The notes below the pieces were generated by a model that was not told the DNA's origin, did no database searches, and was given only the letters and a program-made list of their open reading frames with translations. DNA of 64,000 nt from Norana najaformis. Its lineage: Eukaryota; Annelida; Clitellata; Crassiclitellata; Hormogastridae. Positions 10,036-57,191 of the stretch are shown in pieces (the stretch's first letter is position 1; each line of letters begins with the position of its first letter). Location of the stretch: the NCBI GenBank assembly GCA_964023275.1, contig OZ029916.1, forward strand, positions 13,570,607 through 13,634,606. Reading direction: 5' to 3'. The position numbers and the translations under genes are program-made.

Positions 10036-11445
10036 TATGTGTTTCTGATCGTGTCTTCGTCTATATTTTCTAAATTTCCGACTTTCGTTTACGTTCCTGA
10101 TTTTTCGACATTCGAAAATGTTTGTGATTTTCCGAAATTCGTCAATACATTTTTGATTTTTTGGTCTTCGTCGATATGTTTCTAATTGTTCGACTTTCGC
10201 CTATATATTTCTGGTTTTCCGACCTTCGTCAACATGTTTTTGTAAGCCTGTGTCTGAATTGCTGACCTAGGTCTACATGTTTTTGATTTTGCGACCTTCG
10301 TCTATATGTTCCTAATTTACAACCTTCGTCTGTATTTCTAATTTACAACCTTCGACTGTATTTCTAATTTACAACCTTCGTCTGTATTACTAATTTACAA
10401 CCGTCGTCTGTATTTCTAATTTACAACCTTCGTCTGTATTTCTAATTTACAACCTTCGTCTGTAGTTCTAATTTACAACCTTCGTCTGTATTTCTAATTT
10501 ACAACCTTCGTCTGTATTTCTAATTTACAACCTTCGTCTATATGTTTCTAATTTACAACCTTCGTCTGTATTTCTAATTTACAACCTTCGTCTGTATTTC
10601 TAATTTACAACCTTCGTCTGTATTTCTAATTTACAACCTTCGTCTGTATTTCTAATTTACAACCTTCGTCTGTGTTTCTAATTTACAACCTTCGTCTGTA
10701 TTTCTAATTTACAACCTTCGTCTGTAGTTCTAATTTACAACCTTCGTCTGTATTTCTAATTTACAACCTTCGTCTGTATTTCTAATTTACAACCTTCGTC
10801 TGTATTTCTAATTTACAACCTTCGTCTGTATTTCTAATTTACAACCTTCGTCTGTAGTTCTAATTTACAACCTTCGTCTGTATTTCTAATTTACAACCTT
10901 CGTCTGTAGTTCTAATTTACAACCTTCGTCTATATGTTTCTAATTTACAACCTTCGTCTATATGTTCCTAATTTACAACCTTCGTCTGTATTTCTAATTT
11001 ACAACCTTCGTCTGTAGTTCTAATTTACAACCTTCGTCTGTATTTCTAATTTACAACCTTCGTCTGTAGTTCTAATTTACAACCTTCGTCTGTATTTCTA
11101 ATTTACAACCTTCGTCTGTATTTCTAATTTACAACCTTCGTCTGTATGTTTCTAATTTACAACCTTCGTCTATATGTTCCTAATTTACAACCTTCGTCTG
11201 TATTTCTAATTTACAACCTTCGTCTGTAGTTCTAATTTACAACCTTCGTCTGTATTTCTAATTTGCAACCTTCGTCTGTAGTTCTAATTTACAACCTTCG
11301 TCTGTATTTCTAATTTACAACCTTCGTCTGTATTTCTAATTTACAACCTTCGTCTGTATTTCTAATTTACAATCTTGTCTGTATATTTCTGATTTTTCGA
11401 TCTTCGTCAAAATGTTTCTCATTTGTCGACCTTCGTCTATGCTAC
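10036..11445. repeat. Minisatellite, 26-bp unit, about 40 uniform copies plus diverged edges
   Basis: The core from about 10300 to 11380 repeats CTAATTTACAACCTTCGTCT then GTATTT, a 26-bp unit, with near-identical copies. Some units read GTAGTT instead of GTATTT, and some are 28 bp with TATATG. Outer copies (10036-10300 and 11380-11445) are diverged, 28-30 bp long and richer in TTTTCGAC, the usual picture of an array homogenised from the centre. A run of variant units starting TATATGTTCC recurs 212 bp apart (10959 and 11171), so there is a higher-order repeat. The array does not keep a reading frame. Confidence 0.95.
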
Positions 11446-14387: not shown

Positions 14388-15855
14388 TGTAGACTGAATC
14401 TATATATATATATATATATATTCTCGCCATGTTTATCAATTTCAATTGGTTTTACTAATGTATGAACTGTGCGTATTATTGACAGTTATGCGTATATTAG
14501 AATAAGCGTTTGTGTTGACTAACGTAATTACTCACTTAAAATACTTGGCCGGCTTAGGACGTTCAAACTAATCAAAATAGCAAGGCCAGCATAGGTTCTA
14601 AAAATATACTAAATACGGGGAACAAAGGATGGTTTTCTGAACTAATTTTACGAGAGATCAACGTGGATGTTGATGGATTATTTTATTCGCAATCTGTCAG
14701 AGTTTGCGAGTCATTACGAATGATATTTCAAACTGATGTTTCGATTGCCAGCCAATCGCGATTTTACTTGTGGGATTTTCGACCAATGGCGACACGTTGC
14801 TATTGGAAGTCGTCAGCCAATGAGGGGACACAGTGGACGCGATTCCTTATCCTTTGTAAACAAGTGAGCAGACGAAGATTTCATAGAAGGACTATGAAAT
14901 CGCTACAAATATTGGTGAAAGAGGCAGACGATAATTTCGGCCAATAGGAAACCTTATGACGATGGAAGATTCGCTGTGAAAACCGTTGAAGTAGTTAGTT
15001 CACGGCTGGATTTTGGACAGGAAAGTCCTCGTTGCGATTCAGCGTGACTCCGAGAAATAAGTGGTCAGTTGCCGACTTGTCAAGTCGAACTGCATTCTCG
15101 AATGATGAGCATATAAAGGCTCATGTTTTTACATGTAACTGGCCTGTGTTTCGGTTGTGAAATGACAAAGTTTTCGTAGAGAAACTAACGTCAGAAAGTT
15201 GTGGATTAAGTCCATGTAAGTGCGTCGATACGGACTTAGTGGCGTGAGTCGAAAGACAGCAAAGATGCTTCGTCTTCGATTCAACAGTGCAACTCCATCT
15301 CGTCAAGGAACCATTCCTTTGGACGGTTACGATCGAATCGGGTGAATTCCATTCCTTGAACTGCAAAGAACTCGCTTAAATTACCTACTACGAGAGACAT
15401 TTAATCGATGATCTACAAGGTACGTCGGCGTGGTGAATAGGATTGTTTGCGCAGAGACAACTCGTGGTGAGTGATAAGCTAACCATTCTACGTCGATGCA
15501 AATTCACTACAACTCACAGTGAAACTGTGTCAGACTTTTTCAAACAGTCAGTATGCAGAGGTAAAATGGCCATCCAAGCTTGTGGGTGGGTAGAATTATA
15601 GATTTAGGCTTGATAAGAAGCTGGCCTTAATTAAGCATTAATTAAGACCTTAATATCATTACAATTTCCGCTAGATATCACATGTTGATTTGAGTCTGAC
15701 CTATAATTATCATATCAGGAGACTAAACCCCAATTAACATGTGTATCTACCTACTGCCTAAACAAGCTTGTAGGTACCATGGTGTAATGTAAAGTGACTG
15801 CAATCTATAGTCACCAGAACTAGACAAGAGAGCATTAGACACAGGGGGGGTTACA
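14388..15855 (+). repeat. Unclassified 1.5-kb repeat, copy 1 (ends TGTA...TACA)
   Basis: This 1468-bp stretch is repeated at 21961-23487 at about 85-90% identity by eye. It starts TGTAGACTGAATCTATATAT and ends GGGGGGTTACA, with no protein-coding frame. Shared internal marks are AATAAGCGTTTGTGTTGACT, ATAGCAAGGCCAGCATAGG, GACTCCGAGAAATAAGTG and ATCCAAGCTTGTGGGTGGG. TG...CA ends without coding content would fit a solo LTR, but no target duplication is visible, so it stays unclassified. A (TA)n run sits near its left end. Confidence 0.75.
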
Positions 15856-17234
15856 TCCCCGGAACCGATTTGGCACCATACCGGCCCTACATTAGATTCA
15901 CACAGCTATTAGCCAAAGGCCGGTCAGTGGGTCGTCGACCGATCGGATATTACTATTACAGAAACAATTAAGTATAGCGACGCTAGTAGCAACATGGATA
16001 TAGAAGAAGATCCAAAAGACCGGCATCAACATCATCAGAGCAAAGGCCAACAGGATGGAGAAAGAAGAGCAGGAAAATGAGTAGAAGCCGGAGCACAGAA
16101 TAAGAGAAAACTTCTTCAACTGTTTACTGTATCGGGAAATCATACACCCTTCTCATCCTGCAGGTTGAATTACCAGCTTACAGCATTATTCTGCTCCCAT
16201 GAAGTGCAAAACTCACAATGAAAGAGTACCCTGCAGCAATCGAAGGAAAATGATGGACAGAAGAACCCACCAGAATAGGATGAAATAGGATGAACAAAAC
16301 GACGATGGACAAGAGTCATCAGACGGAGTATTGTTACAAAAGAGTTAAAAGGCGATTAAATTTCAAGAAAGGCCTCTTTCAGAAGGCCTGCTCCTCTAAT
16401 CAAATAATAAATTATGTAATTTAATTGTTATTGGTTAACTAAGAGCAACTATCGTTCTTCTTAAGAACGAGGCAGAGGAAATGGATTGGACACATAAATA
16501 CATATACAGATACGACTTATCTAAAGAAAGATAAATGAGACTTAGATTGGTAATGAGAGGGTAGGTAAACAACTGATGCGAAGATACAGTGGTTTACATT
16601 AACTTGCACCGTAACGCTGAATAAAAGCTGAATTAAGGATGAATTAAATTTGTATTACATTGGATTACACAGAGCAGGGTAAGTAAGACGTATCTCACAG
16701 TGGATTACAAGCTGACAAGTAAGACCGATTATCAGTATGGATAATTAATTTATTACAGAGCCGATCAGAATGGATCACAAAGGGCTGGATAAGTAAGAAA
16801 AAAAGAGGTTAGAAAGAGAGGGGAAGGAAATTGAAGGAACATACTAGCGACCTACACGGGGCACACCATTCAACCGTGGAAAAATTTGAATAGGGAATGG
16901 TCATCATGCAGAATGGAGCAATTGTTGATTATAGGGAAACAATCACGTGAATCGATGTTTGGGCCACCTCGTCGGAGAAAATTTGATCACTGCAAACCTT
17001 GAGGTCATGCATGAGCACGAGTTCAGTCGGTTTGCCAAATGATGAATATATTTAGCGAAACATATGTGGTTGCCGACGATGCGGCTGACGGTATTGGGGG
17101 AATTCAGGTGTCACTGTACAGATGAAAATTAAAGAATACACACCATATTCAGTATTATAGACGCCATGGCTTTCTAACTGGACTACGTCCTGAGGTGACT
17201 TGGCCGATAGCCGTATGATGGACAGTGAGGTGAG
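15856..17234. other. Unassigned stretch
   Basis: No supported gene or recognised repeat was found. The bases just outside copy 1 of the 1.5-kb repeat (GTGCCAAAATGG ... GGAATCGGAACC to its left and GGAACCGATTTGGCACC to its right) are partly inverted to each other, which could be a trace of another element around it. Confidence 0.35.
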
Positions 17235-18268
17235 GATGTCTGACTTGTAATTGTAATTTGAGATTTATAAAGCGCCTCTGAGGAAAAACTCAACAGAGGA
17301 GCTTCCGACCCGAAAGAATAAAATCAGTGTTACACAGTACAGTCTTCAGGCGGCTACGGAACACTGAGAGGGGGAGAGAAAGGAGCTCAAGTCGCAATTC
17401 TCGAGGGAGACGATTCCAGCAAGTTGGGCCAACGTAGGCGAAGCTTCTGGACTGGGCAGTAGCGGTGCGCATTCGAGGGAGGGACAAACAGGAGGTCCTG
17501 AGTGGCCGAGCGAAGGGTGCTACGGCCCGGCAACGAGGAGACCAAAGTGCAGAAGTCAACGAAGTAAAGGGGAGCAGAGCCAAGAACACAATTGCGCATG
17601 AGGGAGAGGATCTTAAAGTGGACACGATGCTGGACGGGGAGCCAGTGAAGAGTGTCACGAATATAAGACGAGATGTGGCCATATTTTGGAATGCCCCCAA
17701 TGAGACGAGCAGCAGAGTTGAGCACAGATTGCATCTTAGCAGTGTTGGCTAGCAATAGCCGGTAAAGATGGCGTTCCCAAAGTCAACCCTAGTGCAAATG
17801 AGGGCATAGACCAGAGTGGAGATAGCATGGAAGGAAAGAGTACGGCGAATGGTGCGGAGCTGACGAAGATGGTAAAAACAAGAGCGAGAGACGCTGTTAA
17901 CATGAGCAGACAGGGTAAGCTCCTGATCCAACACAATCCCGAGATCCGGGACCGTAGTAGAGAAGGAGATATCCGGAAATCTCTGGCGTAAGGAGGAGAA
18001 ATCAATCTTGGCGAGCTGCAAGCGGCCACCAAGCCAGATGAACTGGGTCTTATTACAGTTCAAACGGAGGCGATTGGAGGACATCCATAGGTCAAGGACA
18101 GATGTGGCATCGAGAATCCTCTGGACAAGGGCAGAGGCCGCCTCCGCCTGACCATGGGCGTAAGCCTGGGTGTTGTCTGCATACTGGAGGACGGCAACAC
18201 TCAGTGGGAGGAGGGTCCGAGCTAGATCAGAGGTATATAAAATATAGAGGAGAGGACCTGCCTCATCT
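17235..18268 (-). mobile_element. CR1/L2-like LINE, 5'-truncated, RT to 3' end
   Basis: Minus-strand reading starts at GPLLYILYTSDLARTLLPLS, then YADNTQAYAHGQAEAA (in place of the usual YADD), LDLWMSSNRLRLNCNKTQFI, VPDLGIVLDQELTLSAHVNS, and the C-terminal domain QSVLNSAARLIGGIPKYGHI, DTLHWLPVQHRVHFKILSL, FAYVGPTCWNRLPRELRLEL. It ends in the tail TATAAAGCGCCTCTGAGG (read on plus). There are two or three frame breaks. The copies at 38820-39536 and 49925-51790 are close relatives. Its 5' truncation point is near 18268. Confidence 0.82.
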
Positions 18269-18399
18269 CGGTTCTGTCGGATTATGCGGTGCGCCAAGCT
18301 GTGTGCCGTTGGTCGGTCTTTTTGCTGGCCTGTGTGGTTGGCAAGTACTCAGACACAAAGGCAGACGGGGTCTGTCGGTCCGCCTCCGTAAATGAGTTA

Positions 18400-21960: not shown

Positions 21961-23487
21961 TGTAGACTGAATCTATATATGTTCTCGCTATGTTAATCAA
22001 TTTTAGTTGATTTTGCTATTGTATGAACTATGCATATAATTGACATGGTTTTGCGTATGTTAGAATAAGCGTTTGTGTTGACTAACGTGATTACTCACTT
22101 AAGATACATGGCCGGCTTAGGGCGTTTAAACTAACCAAAATAGCAAGGCCAGCATAGGCTCTAAAAATATAATAATTACGGGGAACAATGAATGGGTTTC
22201 TGAACTATTTTTACATGTGATCAACGTGGATGTAGATAAATTGTTTTATTCGCAATCTGCCAAAGTTTGCGAGTCATTTTGAAGGAGATTTCAAACTGAT
22301 GTTTCGATTGCTAGCCAATCGGGATTTTACTTGGGGGATTTTAGGCCAATGGCGGCACGTTGCCATTGGAAGTAGCCAGCCAATAGGGGGGCGCAGTGGA
22401 CGTAACTCCTTATCATTAGTAAACAAGGAGCAGACGATTCTCTCAACGAAGGACGCTGAAATCACTGCGAATGTGGGTGAAAGATGCAGACGACAATTTC
22501 GGCCAACCGTTTGACGATGTCGATTCGCGGTGAAAACCGTTGAAGAAGTTCAGTTCACGTTGGATTTTGGGCAGGAAGGTCCTAGTTACAATTCAGCGTG
22601 ACTCCGAGAAATAAGTGATCAGTTGCGGACTTGTCAAGTCGAACTGTGTTCTCGAATAATGGGCATACAAAGGCTCATGTATTACAGGTTCTTCACCTGT
22701 GTTTCGGTTGCGAACTGACAAAGTGTTCATAAAGAAACTAACGTCTGGAAGTTGTGGATTAATTCCATGTAATTGCTTCGAAACGGACTTAGCGGCGCGA
22801 GTTGAAAGTCTTCAACTCTACAGTGCAACCACATCTCGTCAAGGAACATTCCTTCGGACGATAACGATCGAATCGCGTGGATTCTCATCCTTGAACAGCA
22901 AGGAATTACCTCAAAATACCTTCTACGAAAGACTTTTATCCAATGGTCTACGAGGTATGTTGGCGTGGTGAAAAGAATCGCTTGTGCAGAGACAGCTAGT
23001 GGTGAGTGACAATCTTATCCTACCACGTCGATGCCAACTCACTGCAACTTACAGTGAAACTGTTCAGACTTCATCAGAGTCAGTACACAGGGGAAATGGC
23101 CATCCAAGCTTGTGGGTGGGTAGTGTTAAAGATCTAGGCTTGATAAGAAGCTGGCCTAATTAAGCATTAATTAAGTCATTGAACTATCTATAATACATTG
23201 ATTGATTTGCAACAATTGACTTTGTTCATTCTTATTCAATCAGACATTATAATACAAGATGGTAGTGGAAAGATACGAGCTATTGTAATAACATTACAAT
23301 TTCCGCTAGATATTGCATGTTGATTTGAGTCTGACCTATAATTATCATATCAGGAGACAAAACCCCAATTAACATGTATATCTGCCTACAGCCTAAACAA
23401 GATTGTAGGTACCATGAGGTAATGTAAAGTGACTGCCATCTATAGTCACTAGATCTAGACAAAGGAGCATTTAGAAAGGGGGTTACA
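21961..23487 (+). repeat. Unclassified 1.5-kb repeat, copy 2 (ends TGTA...TACA)
   Basis: This 1527-bp stretch is homologous to 14388-15855 from TGTAGACTGAATCTATATAT to GGGGGTTACA. It carries about 100 extra bases around 23175-23280 that copy 1 lacks. Flanks TCGGT and TCTAT give no clear target duplication. No coding content is seen. Confidence 0.75.
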
Positions 23488-24079
23488 TCTATAACTACTG
23501 TAATTGTTTTATTTCCAGAAGCACTGTCATTTATCCTGGTTTACTTCCTATCCGACTTCGCCCTATGCGCTCGTTCATCCCACACACCAACATCGATATT
23601 TTGTTCGTTCCTACGGCGTGTTTTAGTGCAAATGTGGCAAAAAATCACCGTATCATGCTACACTACATATATTCTTTCACATATTTTCACCAGGATGCAT
23701 CTAGACGCTTAGACTTCTATGGCCGTTGATACTGCGTTTATTTTATAATAAAAAACTTTAACGTTTTGTCAGTGAGCAGCTTAATGCTTACATCTTGCAT
23801 AACAATAAATGAAATGATTTAATTAATTATTAAATGATTTAATAATTAAGGGCGATATCGGATCTTATTGCCCTTACTAATCTCGTGCGTCGGCGGCCAA
23901 GATGGCGGTTGTTTTATTGTCTGTAGATAAGTTCGTCATATGCGAGATTTGCTCGATAAATTTTGAATGTTCGGACTTCTACTGTGACCGAGTACGTGTT
24001 TCGGAATTATTTCCTGAGTATGCCACCGATGTCATGTGTCTCTTCGGTGGCATGTGATCGAAGCCCTACCGTCGTTTTG
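23488..24079. other. Unassigned stretch with a short ORF starting at CAAGATGGCGG
   Basis: A frame of about 50 codons opens at the ATG at 23901 (MAVVLLSVDKFVICEICSIN...). Its KFVICEIC segment and CAAGATGGCGG start resemble the beginning of the LINE ORF1 at 52931 (MADTREFVVCEMLC), so it may be the stump of a LINE 5' end. The evidence is weak. Confidence 0.3.
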
Positions 24080-30711: not shown

Positions 30712-31233
30712 AACGCCAGACCTGACACTGCAAACCAGTTCTCAAGGCGATGGCTCAAGATGGCGTAGTCAATAGTCTCGCATGCAGCAAATAGGTCAAG
30801 AAGTTACTTTACCATTGTCCACCGAGCAGATAATATCATTGCGGACAGAGAGAAGAGCCATTTCAGTTGACAAATTTCAGAAATATGTTGACTGGAAAGG
30901 GAGAGTTAAAGAGTTTGAAGACATGTGCCTCTAGTCGCTTTTTGAAGATACGAGTTTAGAAATAAAATTCAAGTTTGAAACTGGCCGATGATTTGACATA
31001 TTGCCAGCATCCAGAAGTGACTTCTTCTGTGGATAGACTAACGCATTGGAGAAATATGGAGGGAAAGAGCTCTCAGCCAGTGACAGATTAATTAATAACA
31101 ATATGGCGGCACCGGACGCATGAAAGCAGCTTTTGAGGAGGTGAATTGGAATTGCATATGAGAGGCATTGTTTGCCAGAGGAAGAGAAGACGAGTGATCG
31201 GATTTTCATCCAAATTTGTGGAAATAAGAGAAC

Positions 31234-32127
31234 TGTCAGAGAGTTCCTTTGAGTGTGTGTGTCATTAGGCTGAGAGTAACTTCTGTAGTTTTATTGTCTC
31301 TCTGGATATGCATGTCTTTACGATACGAAAGTCTTCTCAACGCGATTGTCCTCCAAACGTTTTCTAGGTTGATAGAGCTACATTACACAGAACGAGAATG
31401 TTCGCCTTGCCGGACTTTCAGCTCAGTCTATTCTAAACGATTGTCCGACCGACTCGTCGCCTATCTTGCCAGTTCTGCGTGTCTGAATGCAGCAATACAG
31501 ACTGACTTCTAACTTCTGACCGACTGCTCTGGCCGCTGACTTCAGACTAACTTCTGCTCTTGACTGCTGACTTCAGACTGACTTCTGCTCTTGACTTCAG
31601 ACTGATCTCTTGTCCGTGTCTGACATACGCTTATAAGAATTCTTTCCAGACCTTCTGCATTCCGGCTGTACTGCTAGTCGTCCCTGTCCTACTGACCTGC
31701 ACGTTAGACTAGTTTTCGCCTGTGTCCACCTCTATTGAGCCGCTAGGCTTCTCATAGATACCTATTCTGAGGTACCCGTACCTGCTCGCTACTGCAGCAC
31801 AACTAGTAATTATTATCATACTGCGGATGCTGCTTCGTCGTTGCTGCTGCTGGTGCTGGTGCTGCTGCTGCTGCCTGTGGATTTCTGCTCGGGTGGAATC
31901 TTTACTTAGATTGCCCCTCTAACCTAGTTCGCTGTATCTAGTCGTGGCCTCCTGTATCGGCGGCCGACTTCTGAAGATTATAAGTTACTTCTCAGAAATG
32001 GTCAAGGCAACATCTGTTCCTAATGTTTCACTGGCTAGTCTGAGCAACTGGCCGCTATATACCGAGGCAGCACTTAAGCAGTGTAATGTACTACAATAGC
32101 CTACTTACTTCCTTCAACTCCCTGATA
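31234..32127 (-). repeat. LTR (left copy; 3' LTR in element orientation)
   Basis: This repeat pairs with 34470-35363 with almost no differences. It contains a run of CTGACTTCAGACTGACTTCT units (about 31505-31610) and a GCTGCTGCTGGTGCTGGTGC run (about 31845-31875). Confidence 0.88.
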
Positions 32128-34469
32128 TCCCGTCCTGATTTCTAAAAGGCGAACGTCCTCGTTCGTTTAACATGCAGCCCTAAAGCTAAGAGTTGAACCT
32201 AGTGTTATGTGCCTACGACATGCAAATGAGAATGACGAGCAGCTAGATTGTCCTAAAGTTTCCCTGGAGCTGTGCACTTGCTCCACGAAATTAAAGGGTC
32301 TTAGTGCTCAATTAGTCTCATTAGGTTATGCGAGACCTAAGATCTAATAGCAATTCTACAGGCTAAAATGAAATAAACTATGATGGTCAGATCAGTTGGA
32401 ATCAGTTCTGGAGCGACTTGAAAGTGCTCCTGATCAGAGTTCTTCTGAATGAGTCCTTCACAATGTTCTGATCTGGTGTGACCCTTGGCTGAGATGGTAC
32501 GCTGTGCTTGTGTAACGTGACAGCGTCGAAGGCGAAGACATTTGCCTCGGTTGTCTCAGCTCGTTCGGTCATTCCATCATAGCGTTACATGAAACATAGC
32601 AGATAGAAACACACATATAGTTGCATGCACTAACAGGAATAGAATTATGCTTCAAGTCTTGAAAGTTACACACACACTAAAAGCCAAAACGTAACAGAAT
32701 ATTATAGCTGAAATGCTGAATGATGTTTGCATTTGGATCTCGATCTTCAATGAGGAATCTAAACTCATCTCTGGTTCAAATCTGTGGCTATCTGACTGGA
32801 TTACTTGCAGAAAAATCGTTAAACTGCTTACATAACTGGATTTTTGCTGACTGGCGACTGTCATGGATCTTCCTTACTTCATTACTTTACTTGGATGAAA
32901 TAGGCCAATGACAACGTTATCTTAGCATAGGCATGCTGACACGTCATGTGCAATTAAATTTGCCACGATCATTTACTGTTACCACGAACTATCCGACGTA
33001 ACATTCTGCCGCAGCTCAACATAAGTGACTCGTAAAAAAATGCAAATAAAAACTTTAATATACTCGTCAGAACACTTGACCGGAACCTCTACTACTTTGT
33101 GTGCGTCTCTCTGGCACGACAACTCGACTCTCATCATAACCTCGGCAACCAGGGAATTTACACGTCCTGCATTGCGCTAGATAAATCTGGCTTCACTCAC
33201 GTTAGCTTAATATCGTACAGACTTCGTGTTCAATCAGACTTCAGTGATATTCGCAAATATCTCGTGTTCAAACCCAACACTGCACATAAACTTTCAGCGT
33301 GCAGATCTGTAAGGTCTGCTTGTAATAATTAGTACTTCTCACGCGTCGGTGTCTAAATTACGATGCGTCAACCTATGGTGCACCAAAGTCAAGCCGCTAT
33401 CCGAATTATGCAGTTCTTAAATGCAGCGTTATGCTTATAATGCAATCCAGTAAATGCTGAACTGCGTCTTCATATTAAGTCAGCTTTAAACGATCCTGCT
33501 TGGAACCAAAATGAAGATTCGGCTTAGACCATTTACAAAATAAGTGCATAGTGCGAAGTGCTTTTTTTTACAGTGCATAAAACCAAATTTTAAAAGATAA
33601 GAGCGTAAAATGATAAACTTAGCGTACACTCTTCAATAGACCTATAAGCGATTAAAATATGTGGACTGTAAAATTCTAAATCCAAACATGTATACATTAG
33701 CAAGAAACAATTCTTTTAAATAAACACGGTTATAAATTCGAAAACTCTCATAACTGGGGCTTGAATGTTGACTAAACGTACTCGTATATAAGCTTGCTTT
33801 CTGATGGAAGTTGCGTTGCAAAGTCGCTGTTCGAAACTTGCTTAGTTACTTTACGAAATCTGTTGCAAAATTAACAGTAAGTTGATGAAGGACGAATATG
33901 ACAAACATCATGACAAAACTCAACGCTATATGATAGTGAACGATTCCGTGAATGAAGATTATGATGTGGAACCAAATGTATTACCATTATAATGTAGTAG
34001 AAAACATTCTGATCTCGTATACGACTCGTGGAATAGGCGACCTCTCTGCATGGCGATCGTGGGCCCTTGACGTCATGCAGACAGCGTCTGTTCCGTGGAT
34101 GGCGACGAGAGATGAAGGAGTGTAGGCTGAATCGGATCGTGATGACGGTTACAGACATCTTGGATCTGTGATCTGGTATGGCTGAATGTTGACAGATGCC
34201 GATTCTGGAGTGAATGGCAGTCGAAGAAAAGTTGAAATTACAGCACAGTAGAGCGGAAGACATGATTTTCATGATGCCGGTCTTCAGAACGTCAGATGAA
34301 ACGAATCGTTCAGAGATAGACAAGTTGAAAAGTTTGCTGAGCTGAATGGTTCTGTAGCTCACGTCTGAGTCACTCGCGTTGACATACGGGAACTGTGGCG
34401 GTGTAGGCTTGGCTCACTGGAGACGGTACAAGAAGGTACAAGGGCGTCGAACCAGGTTCTCGCACCAGC

Positions 34470-35363
34470 TGTCAGAGAGTTCCTTTGTGTGTGTGTGTCA
34501 TTAGACTGAGAGTAACTTCTGTAGTTTTATTGTCTCTCTGGATATGCATGTCTTTACGATACGAAAGTCTTCTCAACGCGATTGTCCTCCAAACGTTTTC
34601 TAGGTTGATAGAGCTACATTACACAGAACGAGAATGTTCGCCTTGCCGGACTTTCAGCTCAGTCTATTCTAAACGATTGTCCGACCGACTCGTCGCCTAT
34701 CTTGCCAGTTCTGCGTGTCTGAATGCAGCAATACAGACTGACTTCTAACTTCTGACCGACTGCTCTGGCCGCTGACTTCAGACTAACTTCTGCTCTTGAC
34801 TGCTGACTTCAGACTGACTTCTGCTCTTGACTTCAGACTGATCTCTTGTCCGTGTCTGACATACGCTTATAAGAATTCTTTCCAGACCTTCTGCATTCCG
34901 GCTGTACTGCTAGTCGTCCCTGTCCTACTGACCTGCACGTTAGACTAGTTTTCGCCTGTGTCCACCTCTATTGAGCCGCTAGGCTTCTCATAGATACCTA
35001 TTCTGAGGTACCCGTACCTGCTCGCTACTGCAGCACAACTAGTAATTATTATCATACTGCGGATGCTGCTTCGTCGTTGCTGCTGCTGGTGCTGGTGCTG
35101 CTGCTGCTGCCTGTGGATTTCTGCTCGGGTGGAATCTTTACTTAGATTGCCCCTCTAACCTAGTTCGCTGTATCTAGTCGTGGCCTCCTGTATCGGCGGC
35201 CGACTTCTGAAGATTATAAGTTACTTCTCAGAAATGGTCAAGGCAACATCTGTTCCTAATGTTTCACTGGCTAGTCTGAGCAACTGGCCGCTATATACCG
35301 AGGCAGCACTTAAGCAGTGTAATGTACTACAATAGCCTACTTACTTCCTTCAACTCCCTGATA
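34470..35363 (-). repeat. LTR (right copy; 5' LTR in element orientation)
   Basis: It is the same length as the left copy, 894 bp. The primer-binding-site-like sequence lies just outside it, at about 34467 and downward on the minus strand. Confidence 0.88.
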
Positions 35364-38819: not shown

Positions 38820-39536
38820 AAATTGTAATTTGCAATTATAAAGCGCCTCTTAGAGGACAAATTCAGCAGGAGCTCTCCCGACCCGAACAAATAAAATCAA
38901 AATTAAACAGTAGTCTTCATGCAGTTCAGCAGGTGGGACCAACGTAGGCGAAGCTTCTGGACTGGGCCGCACCAGTTCGCATGCGGGGAACAAGCAGGAG
39001 ATCCTGCATGGGTGGCCGAGCGAAGGTAGCTACGCCCCGTCTGCGAGGAGACCAAAGTGCAGAAGTCAATGAGGTTAACGGGGACAGAGCCAGCAACACA
39101 GTTGCGCATAGAAGTGGGGATCTTAAAATGGACACGCTGCTGGATGGGGAGCCAGTGAAGAGTCTCGAATATAGGACGAGATATGTCCGTATCTGGGAAT
39201 GCCCCCAATGAGACGAGCAGCGGAGTTCAGCACAGATTGAAGTTTAGCAGTGTTGGCAAGCGACAGGCCAGTGAAGATGGTTTTACCAAAGTCAACCTGG
39301 TGCAAATGAGGGCATGGACCAGAGCCAAAATAGCATGGAAGGAAAGTGTACGGCAAATTGTACGGAGCTGACGAAAATTGTAAAAACAGGAAAGAGAGAC
39401 GCTGTTAACGTAAGCAGGTAGGGTGAGGGCTCCTGATCTAATGCAACCACGAGATCCCGGACCGTAGTAGAGAAGGAGATATCCGGAAATCTCTGGCTTA
39501 GAAAGGACAGATCGATCTTGACGACCTGCACATAGA
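38820..39536 (-). mobile_element. CR1/L2-like LINE, C-terminal part
   Basis: The minus strand gives IDLSFLSQRFPDISFSTTVR, NSVSLSCFYNFRQLRTICRT, LANTAKLQSVLNSAARLIGG, IPRYGHISSYIRD, QQRVHFKIPTSMRNCVAGSV and FAYVGPTC, parallel to the copy at 17235-18268. It ends in the tail TATAAAGCGCCTCTTAGAGG (read on plus). The 5' side stops at about 39536, where a possible solo LTR begins. Confidence 0.75.
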
Positions 39537-41376: not shown

Positions 41377-41476
41377 TGTTACGTGATGGGCTGGATATCA
41401 GCCCATCCTTGTTGTAAGCACACCTGTTAAAAGGCACAGCACGGGCAGTTGAATAAAGGACGTTAAACACGTAACA
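41377..41476 (+). repeat. Gypsy 5' LTR
   Basis: This 100-bp repeat runs from TGTTACGTGATGGGCTGG to AAACACGTAACA. A TGAATAAAGGACG stretch could be the polyadenylation signal. Confidence 0.9.
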
Positions 41477-44400
41477 TGGTGGCAGCGATTAAAACAGAAC
41501 AATGGAAGAAGTGAACCCACGACCACTGAACACGGGACTAAAACCCCCGCAAACACAGGTTATAGATGAAAATATCGCAGAAAATTGGAGTTTGTTTAAA
41601 CAAAAATGTGACAATTACGCGGTTCTTTGTAACTTGGCGCAGCAGACACGTGAGTACCAGATAGCTCTGTTCTTACACACAGTAGGCGACGAAGCCCTGA
41701 AAATATACAACGGTTTCGAAATACGGACGGAGCGGCATAATAGAACAATTGAAGAAATTATTGAGAAATTTGATGAATTTGCAATCGGAGAGATCAATGA
41801 AACACATGAAAGATATATTTTTAATAAACGAGAACAGAGAGAAGATGAAACTTTTGAATCATTTTATGCAGGAATAAGGACATTAGCCAAAACATGTAAA
41901 TTTTGTCACAAATGTGCGGACTCCGTTTTAAGAGACAGAACTGTTCTTGGAATTAAAGACGCAACAACACAGCAGACACTACTGAGAGAAAGAAAACGCA
42001 CACTGGAGACATGCATTGATATATGCAGAGCAGCCGAAAGGGCAACCAGTACTTCTAAGCTAATTAAATCAGAAGAGATTCACGCTATCAAGAAGCAAGG
42101 TCGAGACAGACCAAAAGACACAGAGTTGAAAAACTATAAAACAACTCGATGGACTAAACAAACTTCAGATATCAGAGAGAATTGCGATTTCTGCGGTCGA
42201 TTCCACCCAAAGGGTAGAAATGAATGTCCATCATGGGGACAGACATGCAGAGGCTGCGGATTTGCCAACTATTTTCAACGAGTCTGTAAGCAACGCAGAC
42301 CTAAACAAAAACTTACGGTGAAACAATTGGAAGACGACGATTCAAACTACACAGAAGAATTGGTCAACAGCATAGAAAACCAAAAACAGTCGAAGCGTGA
42401 CGTTAAATGTAAGATGTTAGTAAACGACGAAACAATTGTCACATTTCAAATAGATACAGGAACAACGGTAAATAGTCTACCCGTTTACTGAGTTGCTCAG
42501 GAGCGGAACAGATGAATTTAATAACCATCAACCATGAAAATATGAATATAGTTGCCTCTCTATCGGTGGTCGACAGATTCAAAAACGTATTTGACGAAGA
42601 ATTGGGATGTTTTGAGGGAAGTGTTAATCTAAAGGTAGACTCATCTGTTCATCCTGTTGTCATGCCTTCCAGAAGGATACCTCTCGCAATACGAGATCAG
42701 CTGAAACTCGAGTTAAATAGCATGACTCGATTGGGTGTTATAACCGAAGTAAACCAACCTACTCCATGGGTCAATCAAATTGTAATTGTGAAGAAGAAGT
42801 CCGGAAAATCACGCATATGTATTGATCCAAAGGAACTGAACAAGGCCCTACTGCGAGAGAGGTATTTACTGCCCACATTAGACGGCAACCTGCACAAACT
42901 GAGCCAATCGAAATTCTTTTCAAAGGCTGATTTGGCATCCGGATATTGGCACGTCCAACTAGACACAGAGTCAAGTTATTTGACGACATTTCAAACATGC
43001 TTCGGACGGTATCGATGGAAAAGGCTTCCATTTGGAGTCAAGGTGTCAGCAGAGATATTTGGGAAGAAGCTCATTGAAGCACTTGATGGTTTGCAGGGAG
43101 TGATTTGCATCGCAGACGACGTTATAGTTCATGGTAGAACCGACAGCGAACACGACCAAAGACTGGCGGAATTTTTGAAGAGATGTCAAGAAAAAGGCGT
43201 AAAATTAAATAAAGAAAAATTACAATTGCGGATGAGATCGATAAACTTCATGGGACACCAGATCACTGATAAGGGTCTAAACCCTGATCCAGAAAAGACA
43301 AGAGCAATTTTGGAAATGGAACCTCCAGATAATATTGAAGGGTTGCGACGAATTGTGGGCATAATAAATTACCTCGCAAGATATTTACCGAAGTTAACTT
43401 TCATCACGGAACCTCTCAGGAATTTAACGAAACGCGAAGTACCGTGGACATGGTCGGATACACAAGAGAAAGCATTCCAGAACGTCAAAAAACTGGTCAG
43501 TGAAGCTCCAGTGTTAGCCTTCTACGATCCAGCAAAGGAGCTGACGATTGAGAATGATGCGTGCGAATATGGGATCGGCTCAGCGCTACTACAGGAAGGA
43601 CGACCGGTGGCTTACGAAAGCCGAACACTGTCGGACGCGGAATCGAGACACGCTCAATTTGAAAAGGAGATGCTAGCTGTTGTCTTTGGACTCGAGAAGT
43701 TCCATTACTACGCATACGGACGCCATTCGACCATAGTAACTGATCATAAGCCTTTAGTGGCTATATGTACTAAGCCGTTATATAAAGCACCAAAGCGATT
43801 ACAGACGTTGTTGCTGCGCACACAGAAGTACAGTTTTACACTTTATACAGACCCGGAAAATCGATTCCACTAGCTGACGCTTTATCACGGGCACCACTGC
43901 CAAGCAAACCGAGCGAAGAGATATTTACTCTAAACAACGTATAATTTCTCCCGATCAAAGAGGAAAAGCTAAATGAAATTAGAAATGCAACAGAAAATGA
44001 CGAAACGATGAAACTGCTGAAGAACGTAATAATCCAGGGATGGCCGGGAGATGGATCACAACTGAGACCTGTCATCACACCACATTTTGATTATAGTGAT
44101 GAATTAACAGTACAAGATCGTATCATTTTGCGACGTGAACGAGTCTTTATTCCAATGTCATTACGACAGGACATGAAAAAGAAAATCCATGCAGGTCACA
44201 TGGGCATAAATTCATGTCTACGAAGGGCCCGTGATGTGGTCTTTTGGCCCGGGATGTCTAAGGAGATTAGACAAATGGTCGAAACATGCGACGTTTGTGC
44301 AACGTATAGCGACAAACAGCCTCCTGAAACGATTTTCTGGCATGAGGCTAACCGACCATGGCAGAGGGTGGGCACGGATCTGTTTACAATTGAGGATCGA

Positions 44401-45504
44401 TGTTATCTGATAACAGTTGATTTTTTCAGTGGTTTCTTCGAAGTAGATTTTTTTACAAGAGATGTCCAGCAAGACAGTAATAGCAAAGATCAAACAGCAT
44501 TTCGCTAGACATGGAATTCCAGATGTGCTGGTCAGTGACGGAGGTTCGCCATATGCGTCCGGTGCGTTCAAAAGATTCAGTACAGAATGGGGTTTCAAAC
44601 ATGAAATCACAAGTCCAGGAAATATTAAAGCCAACGGTGCAGCAGAAGCCGCGGTCAAGATAGCAAAAAGAATGATGAGACGATGTCAGACAGTGAAAGA
44701 GGATCCATTCATAGGATTATTAAATAAGCGTAACACTCCAACTGAGGGCATGGAAACAAGCCAAGCACAGCGGTTCTTTGGGAGACGCACCAAGACTTTA
44801 TACCAACAACGGCAGGGAATTTACGCACGTCTTGGGATGTAAATAAAGATGGAAAGATCAGAGACGCGAAACGAGCAAACGTAGCGCAACATGCGGACAA
44901 AAAAAGGAGAGACTTGAGACCCTTACAAGTGGGTAGCCCGGTAAGAATTCAGCCGTTGGCGCCAGAGGAACGTAAGTGGACACCTGCTGTCGTAACGTCA
45001 CGAAGGTCCAGCCGTTCTTACGAAGTAAGAACACAAGATGGACGCACTTACTGGCGCAACCGACAATTTCTGAGGCAGGCGGGGAACAGAAGTGAAGCTC
45101 CACGCGGCGAGGAAAGAATTAATTCATCAGAGAAAGAGGACGTGGATCAAACGATGCCTATCGCGAAAACAATAGAGAATGGAGACACATCGGAGTGTCT
45201 CAACGGAGGTGAAAGAAGTAACACGACATGTGAAGAGGAAGAATCCGGGATTACACGGATGATGGGATCAGCGGACATAACGGAGAATAACGGTGGACTG
45301 TATCCCACTCGAAGCGGCAGGACCATAAGGCCTGTTGTCGTTTAAACTGTTGATCGTTTGTTGATCGTTGATAGTTTGAACTGTTGATTGTTTGAACTGT
45401 TGATCGTTGAAATGTTGATTGTTTGAACTGTTGATCGTTGGACACTGTTGGGCACAATTTTAATAAGGCATGAAATAATTTTATTTTATTTAAAAGAAGA
45501 AAGA

Positions 45505-45607
45505 TGTTACGTGATGGGCTGGATATCAATCAGCTCATCCTTGTTGTAAAACACCTGTTAAAAGGCACAGCCCTGACAGTTGAATAAAGGACGTTAAACA
45601 CGTAACA
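45505..45607 (+). repeat. Gypsy 3' LTR
   Basis: This 103-bp partner of 41377-41476 is preceded by a purine tract. A small minisatellite of TGTTGATCGTTTGAAC-like units (45343-45443) lies between the end of pol and this LTR. Confidence 0.9.
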
Positions 45608-45656
45608 TATGGAACAAAATACAAATACCACAACCAGATTGAACTCTGTATATGTA

Positions 45657-52745: not shown

Positions 52746-52930
52746 TGGTTGCCGTATTTGTAAACAATATGGCCACCCAAGAATGCGAGATAAAGTAGAG
52801 CACTGCATGCTACCGGAAGGACTATTGAATACATAATTAAGTATTAAGTAAGTAACATAGTAACACAAAGTTTTTCAAAATACTTTTTTGGTCTCAGTAA
52901 AGTAAGAAGTCAATAGTTTCTGTGACATAT

Positions 52931-53908
52931 ATGGCGGACACGCGAGAGTTTGTTGTTTGCGAGATGTTGTGTTTTATAATGAATAAGTTTGGAAAAGTGC
53001 CGGAAAAAAATGTAAAATCGGTGGTAGTCAGTTTCTTCAAAGAGGAAGAAATAGGAGCTGGTAAAGAGTCGTTATATCAAGCGATAGAAAATATGAAGTT
53101 TGATGATATGCCCCGTTTGGTGAAACGGAAAGGCGATAACAAGGTGAAAATGGATGTTGACGACGTCTTTACCATGCTAAATCTGGTCGATGGGAAATTG
53201 GCTATTCAGAATCTACCGATATATGTAGCGCTTAACCTTGATAGAGTGCCGACCGTAAAACCCGAAGATCTTGACGTTTATATGCTGGCAACAATAGTGG
53301 CATCAATGGTGAAACAACTCAAATTGCAGGCTATATCAATAACGGAGTTCAACACAAAGGTTGGAACAATGGCTATCGATAATGTCAAGTCAAATTTGCC
53401 CGTCTCTGTTTCCGACGAACATGTTATTGGTGACTGTGTATCTGGATTGCCTTGTAATAAAAGTGCTAAATCAGACGACAAGGATCATACAACGGACAAA
53501 ACTATAGTCAATAAAACTTTGGTTGATAACAGAGATCAATATGCAGATGTCGTAGCCTTTCAGACCAAGGATAATGGGAATTGGGTTACGGTAGTAAAGA
53601 AAGGAAAAGCGGCTAGGCAACCTCAATGTAGAATTATGGGAAAGGGTGGAGAAAAGGTAAGTTGCTCGAAAGCTGAATCCGCAGGCAAAGAAAAGATGTG
53701 GCATCTCTTTGTGGGTTGCTTAGATCCTGACACAACAGAGGAGGACTTGAAGGGACACTTAGAAGAAAATGGATTACCCATAGCCAGTTGCCGTAAGCTT
53801 TAAGCTTGTCATCCGCTATGATCTGGTGAACGATGCTTTTGATGAAGATCTCTGGCCAGCTGGAGTTGAAGTGAGAGATTGGTATTTCAGTGGTCAGTCT
53901 ACTAATAA
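52931..53908 (+). CDS. LINE ORF1 protein
   Basis: The ATG at 52931 (MADTREFVVCEML) is preferred over 52922 because it opens ATGGCGG and matches the start of a similar stump at 23901. The frame runs about 290 residues to 53803. Residues near the end read KMWHLFVGCLDPDTTEEDLK then GHLEENGLPIASC, an RRM-like or ORF1-type C-terminal fold. A frameshift lies at about 53795; the adjacent frame continues FKLVIRYDLVNDAFDEDLWP then AGVEVRDWYFSGQST up to the transposon junction. In related LINEs ORF1 binds the RNA. The lysine-rich middle (VKKGKAARQPQ) fits that role. The function is inferred from position and likeness to LINE ORF1 proteins. Confidence 0.7.
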
Positions 53909-54351
53909 CACTGGCCAACAGAAAAAATTTTTTTCTTGTTGCCTTCGGTTTTAGACCTGTTCTTGGGGTAATTTGGGGCGCTGATTCAGAAAATGTCATT
54001 GGATTGAGTGCATCAGGTCTAGTTTCTGAGATATCGTCGATTTTGTAAAGAAAACCCAGTCCACTCTTTAAACGATGTCTTTGGCAAAACTAAAATGTCA
54101 TAATAAGCTTTATTTATGGCTAATTATAATTCTTGCTGATTCATATAATGCCTACATCCTTATAATGTAAAATCAGCATATCAGCATATCTTGCCGCATG
54201 CTGAGATATTGCTGATTCAACGAAATAACTATTCCGTAGCCTACAGCTTACTCAGCACTAAATTCATGGCCTCATTTAGAATTTATTTGTGCTTATACAG
54301 CGTTTCATGGTTTCGAACTATGTAAATAGATTATGCTGAAGTCAGCATTTA

Positions 54352-54370
54352 TAGCCTATATAAACCGCCT
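54352..54370 (+). promoter_or_regulatory. TATA box of the TIR transposon
   Basis: GCCTATATAAACCGCCTCCT lies about 140 bases before the transposase-like frame, inside the transposon, in the right orientation to start its transcript. Confidence 0.4.
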
Positions 54371-54500
54371 CCTGAAAGCTAGAGCAGCCGCAGTCGTCTT
54401 AGGGCATATTAAGAGTTGGTCGCAAGAACAATCTGTGAATGTGAGCATTAAATAACTACATGTTCTTACTATTTTTTAGGTTAGTCATTTAATTCCTCAG

Positions 54501-55475
54501 ATGCGAACATCCTTAAGGTTATGGCTACCTCCAGACGGAGCTGCATTAACCAACCAAATCGACAGTTCAAAACGTAGTCTGAAATGTGTGCTTTTAAATA
54601 ACGGCAACAAATTTGGTTCTATTCCAATCGGTCACTCCACCAGGATGAAAGAAGAGTACAATGCCATCTCTTTAGTACTGGAAAAGATAAAATACAAAGA
54701 ACATCAATGGGTAATTTATGTAGACTTGAAGATGGTAAATTTCCTCCTTGGTCAACAAAGTGGCTACACAAAGTATCCCTGCTTTTTGTGTCTTTGGGAC
54801 AGTAGAGCCAAGCATGAACATTGGACAAGAAAAGATTGGCCTTCGAGGAAAGACATGGTGGTTGGAGCTCAAAATGTAATCAAGGAATCTTTGGTGGCAC
54901 GAGATAGGATCATACTGCCACCACTACATATAAAGCTAGGCCTGATGAAACAATTTGTCAGGGCTTTGAATAAAGAAGGTTCATGCTTCGAATACATAGT
55001 ACACAAGTTACCAGGAATTACAATGGAAAAATTGAAGGCTGGAATCTTCGATGGTCCACAGATCAGGCAACTTATGAATGACCCACTTTTCATACCATCA
55101 ATGAATGAAATCGAATCTTGTGCCTGGTCTTCCTTTGTTCTTGTAACTAAAAATTTTCTTGGCAACAAGAAGGCAGACAATTATGCACAATTAGTAGAGG
55201 ATATGCTTCTTCATTTCAACAAGCTTGGCTGCAACATGAGCATTAAAGTCCATTATCTCCACAGTCACTTAGATCGCTTTCCAGAGAATCTTGGTGACTT
55301 CAGCGAAGAGCAAGGTGAAAGATTTCACCAAGACATCAAAACAATGGAAAATCGATATCAAGGAAGATGGGATGCACACATGATGGCAGACTATTGCTGG
55401 AATATTATGCGCGATTGTTCCGGCAGATGCCACACTCGGAAATCGTACAAAAGGAGCTTCTTCGGTGTCGAATGA
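54501..55475 (+). CDS. Transposase-like protein of unassigned superfamily (324 aa)
   Basis: The frame is intact. I recall similar proteins as multi-copy uncharacterised proteins in arthropods and cnidarians. Visible marks: IDSSKRSLKCVLL (D21), WVIYVDLKMVNFLLGQQSGY (D75), CFLC (C94, C97) followed by DSRAKHEHW (H105, H107), LPPLHIKLGLMKQFVRALN (140-158), VHYLHSHLDRFPENLGDFSE (250-269) and EQGERFHQDIK (E273). A D...D...C-x2-C...H...E order with a RNase H-like strand around D75 is what a DDE-type transposase would show; this is inference. Its place between matching inverted ends supports it. The N-terminus may be missing: a possible 39-bp intron (GT at 54441, AG at 54479) lies just upstream, so an earlier exon is possible. 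The start at 54501 is the first ATG only. Confidence 0.7.
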   Translation: MRTSLRLWLPPDGAALTNQIDSSKRSLKCVLLNNGNKFGSIPIGHSTRMKEEYNAISLVLEKIKYKEHQWVIYVDLKMVNFLLGQQSGYTKYPCFLCLWDSRAKHEHWTRKDWPSRKDMVVGAQNVIKESLVARDRIILPPLHIKLGLMKQFVRALNKEGSCFEYIVHKLPGITMEKLKAGIFDGPQIRQLMNDPLFIPSMNEIESCAWSSFVLVTKNFLGNKKADNYAQLVEDMLLHFNKLGCNMSIKVHYLHSHLDRFPENLGDFSEEQGERFHQDIKTMENRYQGRWDAHMMADYCWNIMRDCSGRCHTRKSYKRSFFGVE

Positions 55476-55798
55476 CTTGAAATTTTTATAACAAACTTGT
55501 TCTGTTTGGTATCATATAAGTACAGTTTCAGGTACTACCATTTTCTTTTAAGTATTTGTATTATTATGTTTATTTAGTGTATCACATAATAAATTGAGCA
55601 CTACATAATTATAGCTATAGCCTTATGTTTATGGGCGAGCAGAGGCAAGGACTGGTATATGGCATAATGTTCTATATCTCGAAAACTAGACCTGTTGGGA
55701 GAAAACTGGTGCCTTTTCTGGAATCAGCAGGTCAAATATACCCAGAAACAGTTCTAACATTTGAGGCAACAAATTATGTGTTGGCCAGTGTAATCAAT

Positions 55799-57191
55799 GA
55801 TGGATATGGCCATAAAAATTACAACCTACAATATGTATGGGTATAACCAAGGTAGTGTGTTTCTAAAGGAGTTGTGTAATTCTAACGATATTATTGCTGT
55901 TCAGGAACATTGGCTTGGGAAACATGCTTTAGACAAAATCTTGCATTTTCATGGTGATTTCAAGGGCTTTGCTTGGTCAGCAATGGACGAGAGACTTGAA
56001 ACTGGTCTTCTTATGGGAAGGCCTTTTGGAGGGTTAGGACTACTAGTTAGGAAAAGCCTGAATTTTGATGTTTCTTATGTCATGGTTCAATCTGACTGTC
56101 GCTGTGCATCGCTTAAACTCACCCTCAGTGGTGGCTTTCAATTGTTAATCATTATAGTTTATTTTCCATGTTATGAGGCGAGTTTAAAATATCAGACTGA
56201 GTTACTGGAATGCCTTGGATTTATAGAGAATTACATTCAGTCGTGTGATGCAAATGGCTTGATTATCTTAGGGGATATGAACTTTGAATGTCGAATTGAT
56301 AATAAGGGATTTAGACTATTTCACAGTCTTGTTAATGATTTCAATTTAATTAATGGAAAAGAGATATGTACATATGATGATAAATACACGTACATTAAAG
56401 AGTCTACTGGGCATCATTCTTGGATCGATCACATTTTTATGGACAAGAAGCTGTTTGCAAGACTTGTAGAATATAATATCGATGAAAATATTTTAAATCT
56501 CTCTGACCACCTTCCAGTAACCTGTTGTTTAGAATTGAAGGAACTACATACGCCAATAAAGATGAGGGGCCTGAATAATACTAGTGAAAATAAAGTGGGA
56601 GTGAGAAGATGGGATAAGGGTAATATACCTCTGTATTATGCACTAAGTGGTAGCTTGTTACAAAACATGTATGTTCCATATGATAACCTATCTTGTAATT
56701 GTGATGTATTCAAATGTAATCATTGGCAGTCTATAAATGATTATTACTGTTCCTTGGTTGACTCAATGTCTAAAGCTGCTGATAGGTCAATTCCCTTTCT
56801 AAAAGAGAACTCTTTAAAATATTATTGGAGCCCTGAGCTCAGGGATTTGAAGAAAGAGTCAATTGATGCTCATAATATGTGGGAAGTGTGTGGTAAACCG
56901 AAATCTGGAATAATTTATAATCTACGTAGAGATTGTAAATACAAATATAAATTAGCTATTAGACATGCTGCTGAATGTAAGGAGATGGATCTGGATGACG
57001 AAATAGCTCAACTCTATATTGCCAAAGATATGAATAAATTCTGGAAGAAATGGAATAATAAATTTTCTAAACGAAACCATATTCCAACTAATGTAAATGG
57101 TAAGATGAATGATCAAGATATTGCGGAAACCTTTAACAGGAGCTTTGCACAGAATAGTTTTGACTGTTATGAGGATGTTAGTTACAGGTAA
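55799..57191 (+). CDS. LINE ORF2, endonuclease part only
   Basis: The frame starts MMDMAIKITTYNMYGYNQGS and contains the AP-endonuclease blocks in order: DIIAVQEHWLGKHALDKIL (QEHW), RPFGGLGLLVRKSLNFD (GG block), LLIIIVYFPCYEASLKYQTE (VYFP), GLIILGDMNFECRIDNK (GDMN), STGHHSWIDHIFMDKKL (SxIDHI) and LNLSDHLPVTCCLEL (SDHLPV). These are the metal- and DNA-binding positions of the nuclease that nicks target DNA for LINE insertion. A linker with WSPELRDLKKESIDAHNMW follows. The frame stops at 57189 without a reverse transcriptase, so the element is cut off. The start codon overlaps the ORF1 stop once the inserted transposon is set aside. Confidence 0.8.

Follow-up and report, generated by a model that had tools for sequence, protein, structure and literature searches.

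A 1,882-bp inverted-repeat transposon inside a LINE, with a frame that probably encodes part of a CMC-type transposase

The segment at positions 53909-55790 of the DNA analysed here (a stretch of 64,000 bp, referred to as the window) is 1,882 bp long and contains one frame of 324 codons. The question that it raises is twofold: whether the segment is a transposon with recognisable boundaries, and whether the frame, which the initial annotation had described as an unassigned transposase-like gene, can be attributed to a known type of transposase.

Boundaries of the element and its setting in a LINE

Both ends of the element read CACTGGCCAACA inward, and the inverted repeat is perfect over 12 bp, located at 53909-53920 (plus strand) on the left and at 55779-55790 (minus strand) on the right. 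Each flank carries a TAA, i.e. a 3-bp target duplication, with the left copy at 53906-53908 and the right copy at 55791-55793; the left copy is preceded by an A and the right copy is followed by a T, the target site being A-TAA-T. Beyond the 12 bp, an imperfect inverted repeat runs to about 126 bp, at 53909-54034 on the plus strand and at 55674-55790 on the minus strand, with 70% over 100 bp in blastn. The local alignment of the two ends, taken as 220-bp stretches, scores 52; for comparison, 2,000 random 220-bp pairs were drawn, 17 of which lay too close and were dropped, and among the remaining 1,983 a single pair (with a score of 68) reached this value, the next best scoring 28.

The 12-bp ends alone are weak evidence, since the window contains 81 perfect inverted 12-mer pairs that are spaced 200-6000 bp, some of them with matching flanks (two among the 59 of the 81 pairs that were listed have matching flanking 3-mers). 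The ATAAT context surrounds 121 of the 1,322 plus-strand TAA of the window, and 0.37% of the positions in the window are the first letter of an ATWAT. The case for the element is carried by the long inverted repeat and by the LINE setting, not by the 12-bp pair alone.

The element splits a LINE (non-LTR retrotransposon) between its two reading frames: ORF1 is located at 52922-53803 (plus strand), with a tail that extends as far as the insertion point in a different frame, and the start of ORF2, at 55797-57191 (plus strand), begins six bases past the element. The ORF1 region is identified as part of a LINE because ORF2 carries an endonuclease domain (Pfam PF03372, E 1.6e-8). When the element and one TAA are removed in silico, the tail of ORF1 reads ...VRDWYFSGQSTNNQ*, and its stop overlaps the start of ORF2; this overlap supports the boundaries of the element, but only modulo three bases, because retaining the second TAA also preserves the frame. 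Since the element sits inside the LINE, we infer that it is younger than the LINE copy that it interrupts. The reading proposed earlier for this locus, a compact transposon with inverted repeats and a duplicated TAA, is thus borne out by the 12-bp ends, the repeats of about 126 bp and the interruption of the LINE.

Further copies, end-like words and neighbouring repeats

The 64,000-bp window contains neither a second copy of the element nor a second copy of the LINE. Besides the two ends of the element itself, the 12-bp end word has 13 further near matches in the window, with two mismatches at most, a number that exceeds chance: at least 13 near matches are reached in only two of 1,000 letter permutations. 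We have considered these words as the ends of non-autonomous copies and have rejected them as such, since, within 6 kb, none of the 13 is paired with an inverted counterpart that shares its 3-bp flank (the pair at 43895-44537 has a flank match of 2 bp) and they align to the ends of the element at scores of only 14-20. Repeats of subterminal motifs are a feature of plant CACTA elements, and GCTGATTC is found in four copies in the element and in five in the whole window; because 44 of 300 mononucleotide shuffles of the element also yield an 8-mer with at least four copies, these repeats have been discounted as evidence.

Several other repeats are located in the window. A nearly complete retrotransposon of the Ty3/gypsy type, at 41377-45608, contains reverse transcriptase, RNase H and integrase zinc-binding domains; its LTR-like repeats, 101 and 104 bp long, are 90% alike and start with TGTTACG, and a possible ATGG duplication is present. 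Together with the LINE, this retrotransposon identifies the host as a eukaryote, presumably an animal. A direct duplication of 895 bp (31233-32127 and 34469-35363, 99.8% identity, 3,236 bp apart) lacks TG..CA ends, its outer flanks having only GAA in common; the pair may be a recent duplication, or perhaps the two LTRs of an as yet unrecognised element. A diverged direct repeat of about 1.4 kb, at 14410-15857 and 21971-23489, consists of two pieces (83% and 90% identity) and is probably an interspersed repeat. A further direct repeat of about 600 bp (17417-18020 and 38927-39530, 83% identity) probably represents pieces of a LINE, since a weak match to reverse transcriptase (minus strand, 17749-18297, E 0.00044, below the family cut-off) overlaps with its first copy. 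At 10294-11384 a 26-bp unit is repeated in tandem about 41 times, and an array of 29-bp period lies just before it, at 10055-10239.

The 324-codon frame and its candidate landmarks

The frame is located at 54501-55475 on the plus strand, and its landmarks suggest that it corresponds to the catalytic part of a CMC-type DDE transposase. It lies in the longest stop-free run of the element, which comprises 331 codons, compared with a maximum of 212 in 1,000 mononucleotide shuffles of the element. The next-longest frame that is wholly within the element has 103 codons, is read from the opposite strand and lies inside the transposase frame, so that a clear second gene is absent. A possible polyadenylation signal, AATAAA, is present within the element at 55588-55593 (plus strand).

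The D, D, C-x2-C, H and E landmarks that had been noted as fitting a DDE transposase are recovered, as far as residue patterns can tell, in the following order on the plus strand: D21 (codon at 54561-54563) and D75 (54723-54725) as the proposed first and second catalytic aspartates; C94-x2-C97 (54780-54791), a C(2)C motif by the published definition and a proposed zinc-binding pair; L142-H143 (54924-54929), the published LH motif, with H143 standing in PPLH; H251-x4-H256 (55251-55268), an H(4)H motif by the published definition and a second proposed zinc-binding pair, for which H254 is an alternative last histidine; and E273 (55317-55319) as the proposed catalytic glutamate, with E269 and E270 as alternatives. 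The strict ordered pattern D-x18-C-x2-C...H-x4-H-x14-22-E occurs in 133 of 200,000 shuffles of the protein and a looser pattern of the landmarks in 909 of 200,000, figures that flatter the match because the pattern was chosen only after the protein was read.

The profile searches have returned no transposase. With hmmscan, run to a limit of E 10 with program filters that remove most matches above about 0.1, the sole Pfam match of the whole protein is ZapG-like (E 0.072, below its cut-off); when the protein is taken in three pieces, three matches are obtained (E 0.033-0.21), none of them to a transposase and all below cut-off. Transposase_21 (PF02992), the domain of EnSpm/CACTA, is absent among the matches of the whole protein and of the three pieces, and NCBIfam gives no match to the 324-aa protein. 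The sequences of the PDB give none up to E 10, hence neither RAG1 nor Transib.

These negative results bear on two other explanations of the locus. According to the first, the element would be non-autonomous, moved in trans, and would carry a captured host gene, the 324-codon frame being no transposase at all; we consider this very unlikely, because, although no transposase domain is detected by Pfam or NCBIfam and the 592 bp upstream of the frame have no long open frame, the frame carries the ordered set of D, D, C(2)C, LH, H(4)H and E, and no other frame of the element exceeds the 103 codons mentioned above. The second explanation concerns PIF/Harbinger elements, which duplicate TWA and are characterised by a DDE_Tnp_4-type domain and a Myb/SANT partner gene: on this view, the protein would be a Harbinger transposase that has diverged, and the TAA an instance of the TWA target. 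The TAA duplication has the 3-bp length that canonical Harbinger elements produce (PMC12730594), but the ends are CAC...GTG, C(2)C, LH and H(4)H are the signature of CMC, Pfam detects no DDE transposase and specifically no DDE_Tnp_4-type domain, and the element has no gene-sized second frame for a Myb/SANT partner; on this balance, a Harbinger origin is very improbable. A CMC-type transposase is the reading that we retain for the frame.

The protein family, which we take to be multi-copy and uncharacterised elsewhere, has not been recovered from the DNA collections that were searched: in the viral and genome contig collections, the protein search gave one pattern match each, neither of which was upheld by tblastn; degenerate patterns of conserved-looking peptides gave no match in the viral contigs and none in the genome contigs; and tblastn against phages and plasmids gave no match to the protein up to E 1. 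By their descriptions, these collections contain prokaryotes, viruses, plasmids and metagenomes, and the lack of relatives says little, because they are not animal genomes. A text search of the literature, a method that seldom catches peptide strings, has returned nothing on the peptides of the protein, on a CACTGG-ended transposon, on orphan proteins like this one or on new superfamilies recognised with AlphaFold.

Structures were predicted with AlphaFold without relatives in the input, both for the whole frame (pLDDT 34.0) and for residues 15-110 (pLDDT 38.3), and both models are too poor for use. In these poor models, two strands and a helix follow D21; the longer one places D75 after a strand, E273 in a helix and D21 outside any strand, and the shorter one has no strand immediately before D75.

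Several features suggest that the copy is incomplete. The 592 bp of the element that are located 5' of the frame contain stops in every plus-strand frame and no long open frame, as is seen at 54035-54500, where TATATAAA occurs at 54357; only 20 residues are left ahead of the first aspartate, D21, and larger members of the family presumably have about 100 or more. The frame likely covers only the catalytic part of the transposase, the N-terminal part having been lost. Since no recognisable N-terminal DNA-binding part is present in the remaining frame, the copy is probably not self-sufficient at present, i.e. it is non-autonomous. The stop-free run starts right after TTTTTTAG, which resembles a splice acceptor, and it is possible, to judge from this resemblance, that an unrecognised first exon lies upstream. 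The frame that the initial annotation described as intact is open throughout, but probably does not represent the whole transposase, considering the upstream stops and the 556-562 aa of the published Chapaev3 examples cited below.

Type of the element and comparison with known systems

The signature of the CMC (CACTA-Mirage-Chapaev) group reportedly goes back to Yuan and Wessler 2011. As summarised in a review, CMCT transposases have three acidic residues, 2C and 3H, with C(2)C and H(3-4)H between the second D and the E, and CMCT transposons have CA..TG ends in most cases and duplications of 2-5 bp (PMC12730594). D21, D75, C94-x2-C97, H143, H251-x4-H256 and E273 would correspond to this set, a match by motif position only, and the ends CACTGG...CCAGTG and the 3-bp TAA fit the ranges given. 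Chapaev transposases are described as having C(2)C, LH and H(4)H, with CAC/GTG at the ends of the elements, and Chapaev3 elements as duplicating a TWA that is flanked by A and T (PMC4079192): all three motifs are present in the protein, and the CAC/GTG tips and A-TAA-T agree with the description, in one copy only. The length differs, with 324 codons instead of the approximately 550 aa of a Chapaev3 transposase; because the 324 codons and the upstream stops read as truncation, we have not filed this copy as a full Chapaev3 element.

Counting against a CMC assignment are the lack of a profile or PDB match, the poor structure models (with D21 outside any strand in the longer one), the choice of the landmark pattern after the fact, the single copy, the aspartates that are 54 residues apart, and the short frame and element. 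The gene remains without a transposase profile match, but its type is assignable in outline, because the ends, the target and the residue landmarks jointly match the published definitions of CMC and Chapaev3. Judging from these sequence features, we regard it as highly probable that the element is a cut-and-paste DNA transposon of the CMC group. It is a new copy of a known group, and adds the assignment of a protein, not a new kind of element.

Within CMC, our best reading is that the element is nearest to Chapaev3 in its features, being Chapaev3-like by published descriptions and not by sequence. A different placement within the group is a serious contender, although we give it somewhat less than an even chance, and it overlaps with our reading, which claims the clade and a likeness to Chapaev3 only: EnSpm likewise has CAC..GTG termini and a 3-bp duplication in the account cited (PMC12730594), and the lack of a Pfam match to Transposase_21 or to any other transposase model has been counted in its favour, whereas the A-TWA-T target, LH and H(4)H fit the published features of Chapaev3 quoted above (PMC4079192), and the CACTA-related TRC elements of animals have CCC ends and 2-bp duplications in the three species with known ends that the cited text covers (PMC1636069). 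Retaining the Chapaev3-like reading, we also mention a more far-reaching and rather doubtful possibility, namely that the protein belongs to a distinct and widespread branch of the CMCT clade in animals, beside Chapaev3, EnSpm, Transib and others; its many genomic copies would sit in databases as uncharacterised proteins, and its elements would have CACTGGCC ends and A-TWA-T targets.

In the mechanism that we propose, the inverted ends would be bound by a transposase that has a DDE core of the RNase H type and that excises the element at its CAC/GTG tips; the element would be joined into A-TWA-T with a 3-bp stagger, and repair by the host would produce the TAA duplication. By analogy with RAG1 and Transib, C94/C97 and H251/H256 may hold one zinc ion, tying a helical insertion onto the core. 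If the assignment of the landmarks is true, proteins that are missed by Pfam and NCBIfam in the versions searched here would gain a mechanism (DDE cut-and-paste, with a RAG1-like zinc-tied insertion) and defined ends, which would let annotators spot such proteins and purge gene sets of them; the clade of Transib and RAG1 would also gain a family.

The closest likeness is to Chapaev3 (Merrow, Garfield and Conan, known from animals), with which the element shares CAC...GTG tips, A-TWA-T, C(2)C, LH and H(4)H. Published examples are Garfield_BM, with 2,289 bp and a 556-aa transposase (PMC4079192), and the Merrow elements of two lampreys, with 2,451 and 2,455 bp and 78 + 484 aa (PMC4079192), Merrow fragments of only 807 and 833 bp being listed there as well (PMC4079192); compared with these examples, the element measures 1.88 kb versus 2.29-2.46 kb, and its frame 324 aa versus 556-562.

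EnSpm/CACTA elements resemble the element in their CACT tips, their 3-bp duplication and the presence of C(2)C and H(3-4)H between the second D and the E (PMC12730594, PMC4158355), but the element has neither a Transposase_21 match nor a second gene, and is far smaller than Spm/En at 8.3 kb (PMC1636069). The same source describes CACTA/TRC proteins with about 80 residues between the aspartates and a CXXC (PMC1636069), and an L/M-H-x3-L-G motif in the animal and most of the fungal ones (PMC1636069); in the 324-aa protein, the aspartates are 54 residues apart and the motif reads L-H-x2-L-G.

RAG1 and Transib differ from the element in the size of their duplications, which is 5 bp (PMC7204232) as against 3 bp here, and share its CAC tips (PMC7204232). 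In RAG1, the published distances (PMC4914335) are 108 residues from the first to the second D, 254 from the second D to the E and 20 from the last histidine to the E, compared with 54, 198 and 17 in the 324-aa protein; the spacings around the proposed zinc site coincide, D708 being followed by C727 at +19 and C730 at +22, with H937-x4-H942 (PMC4914335), just as D75 is followed by C94 at +19 and C97 at +22, with H251-x4-H256.
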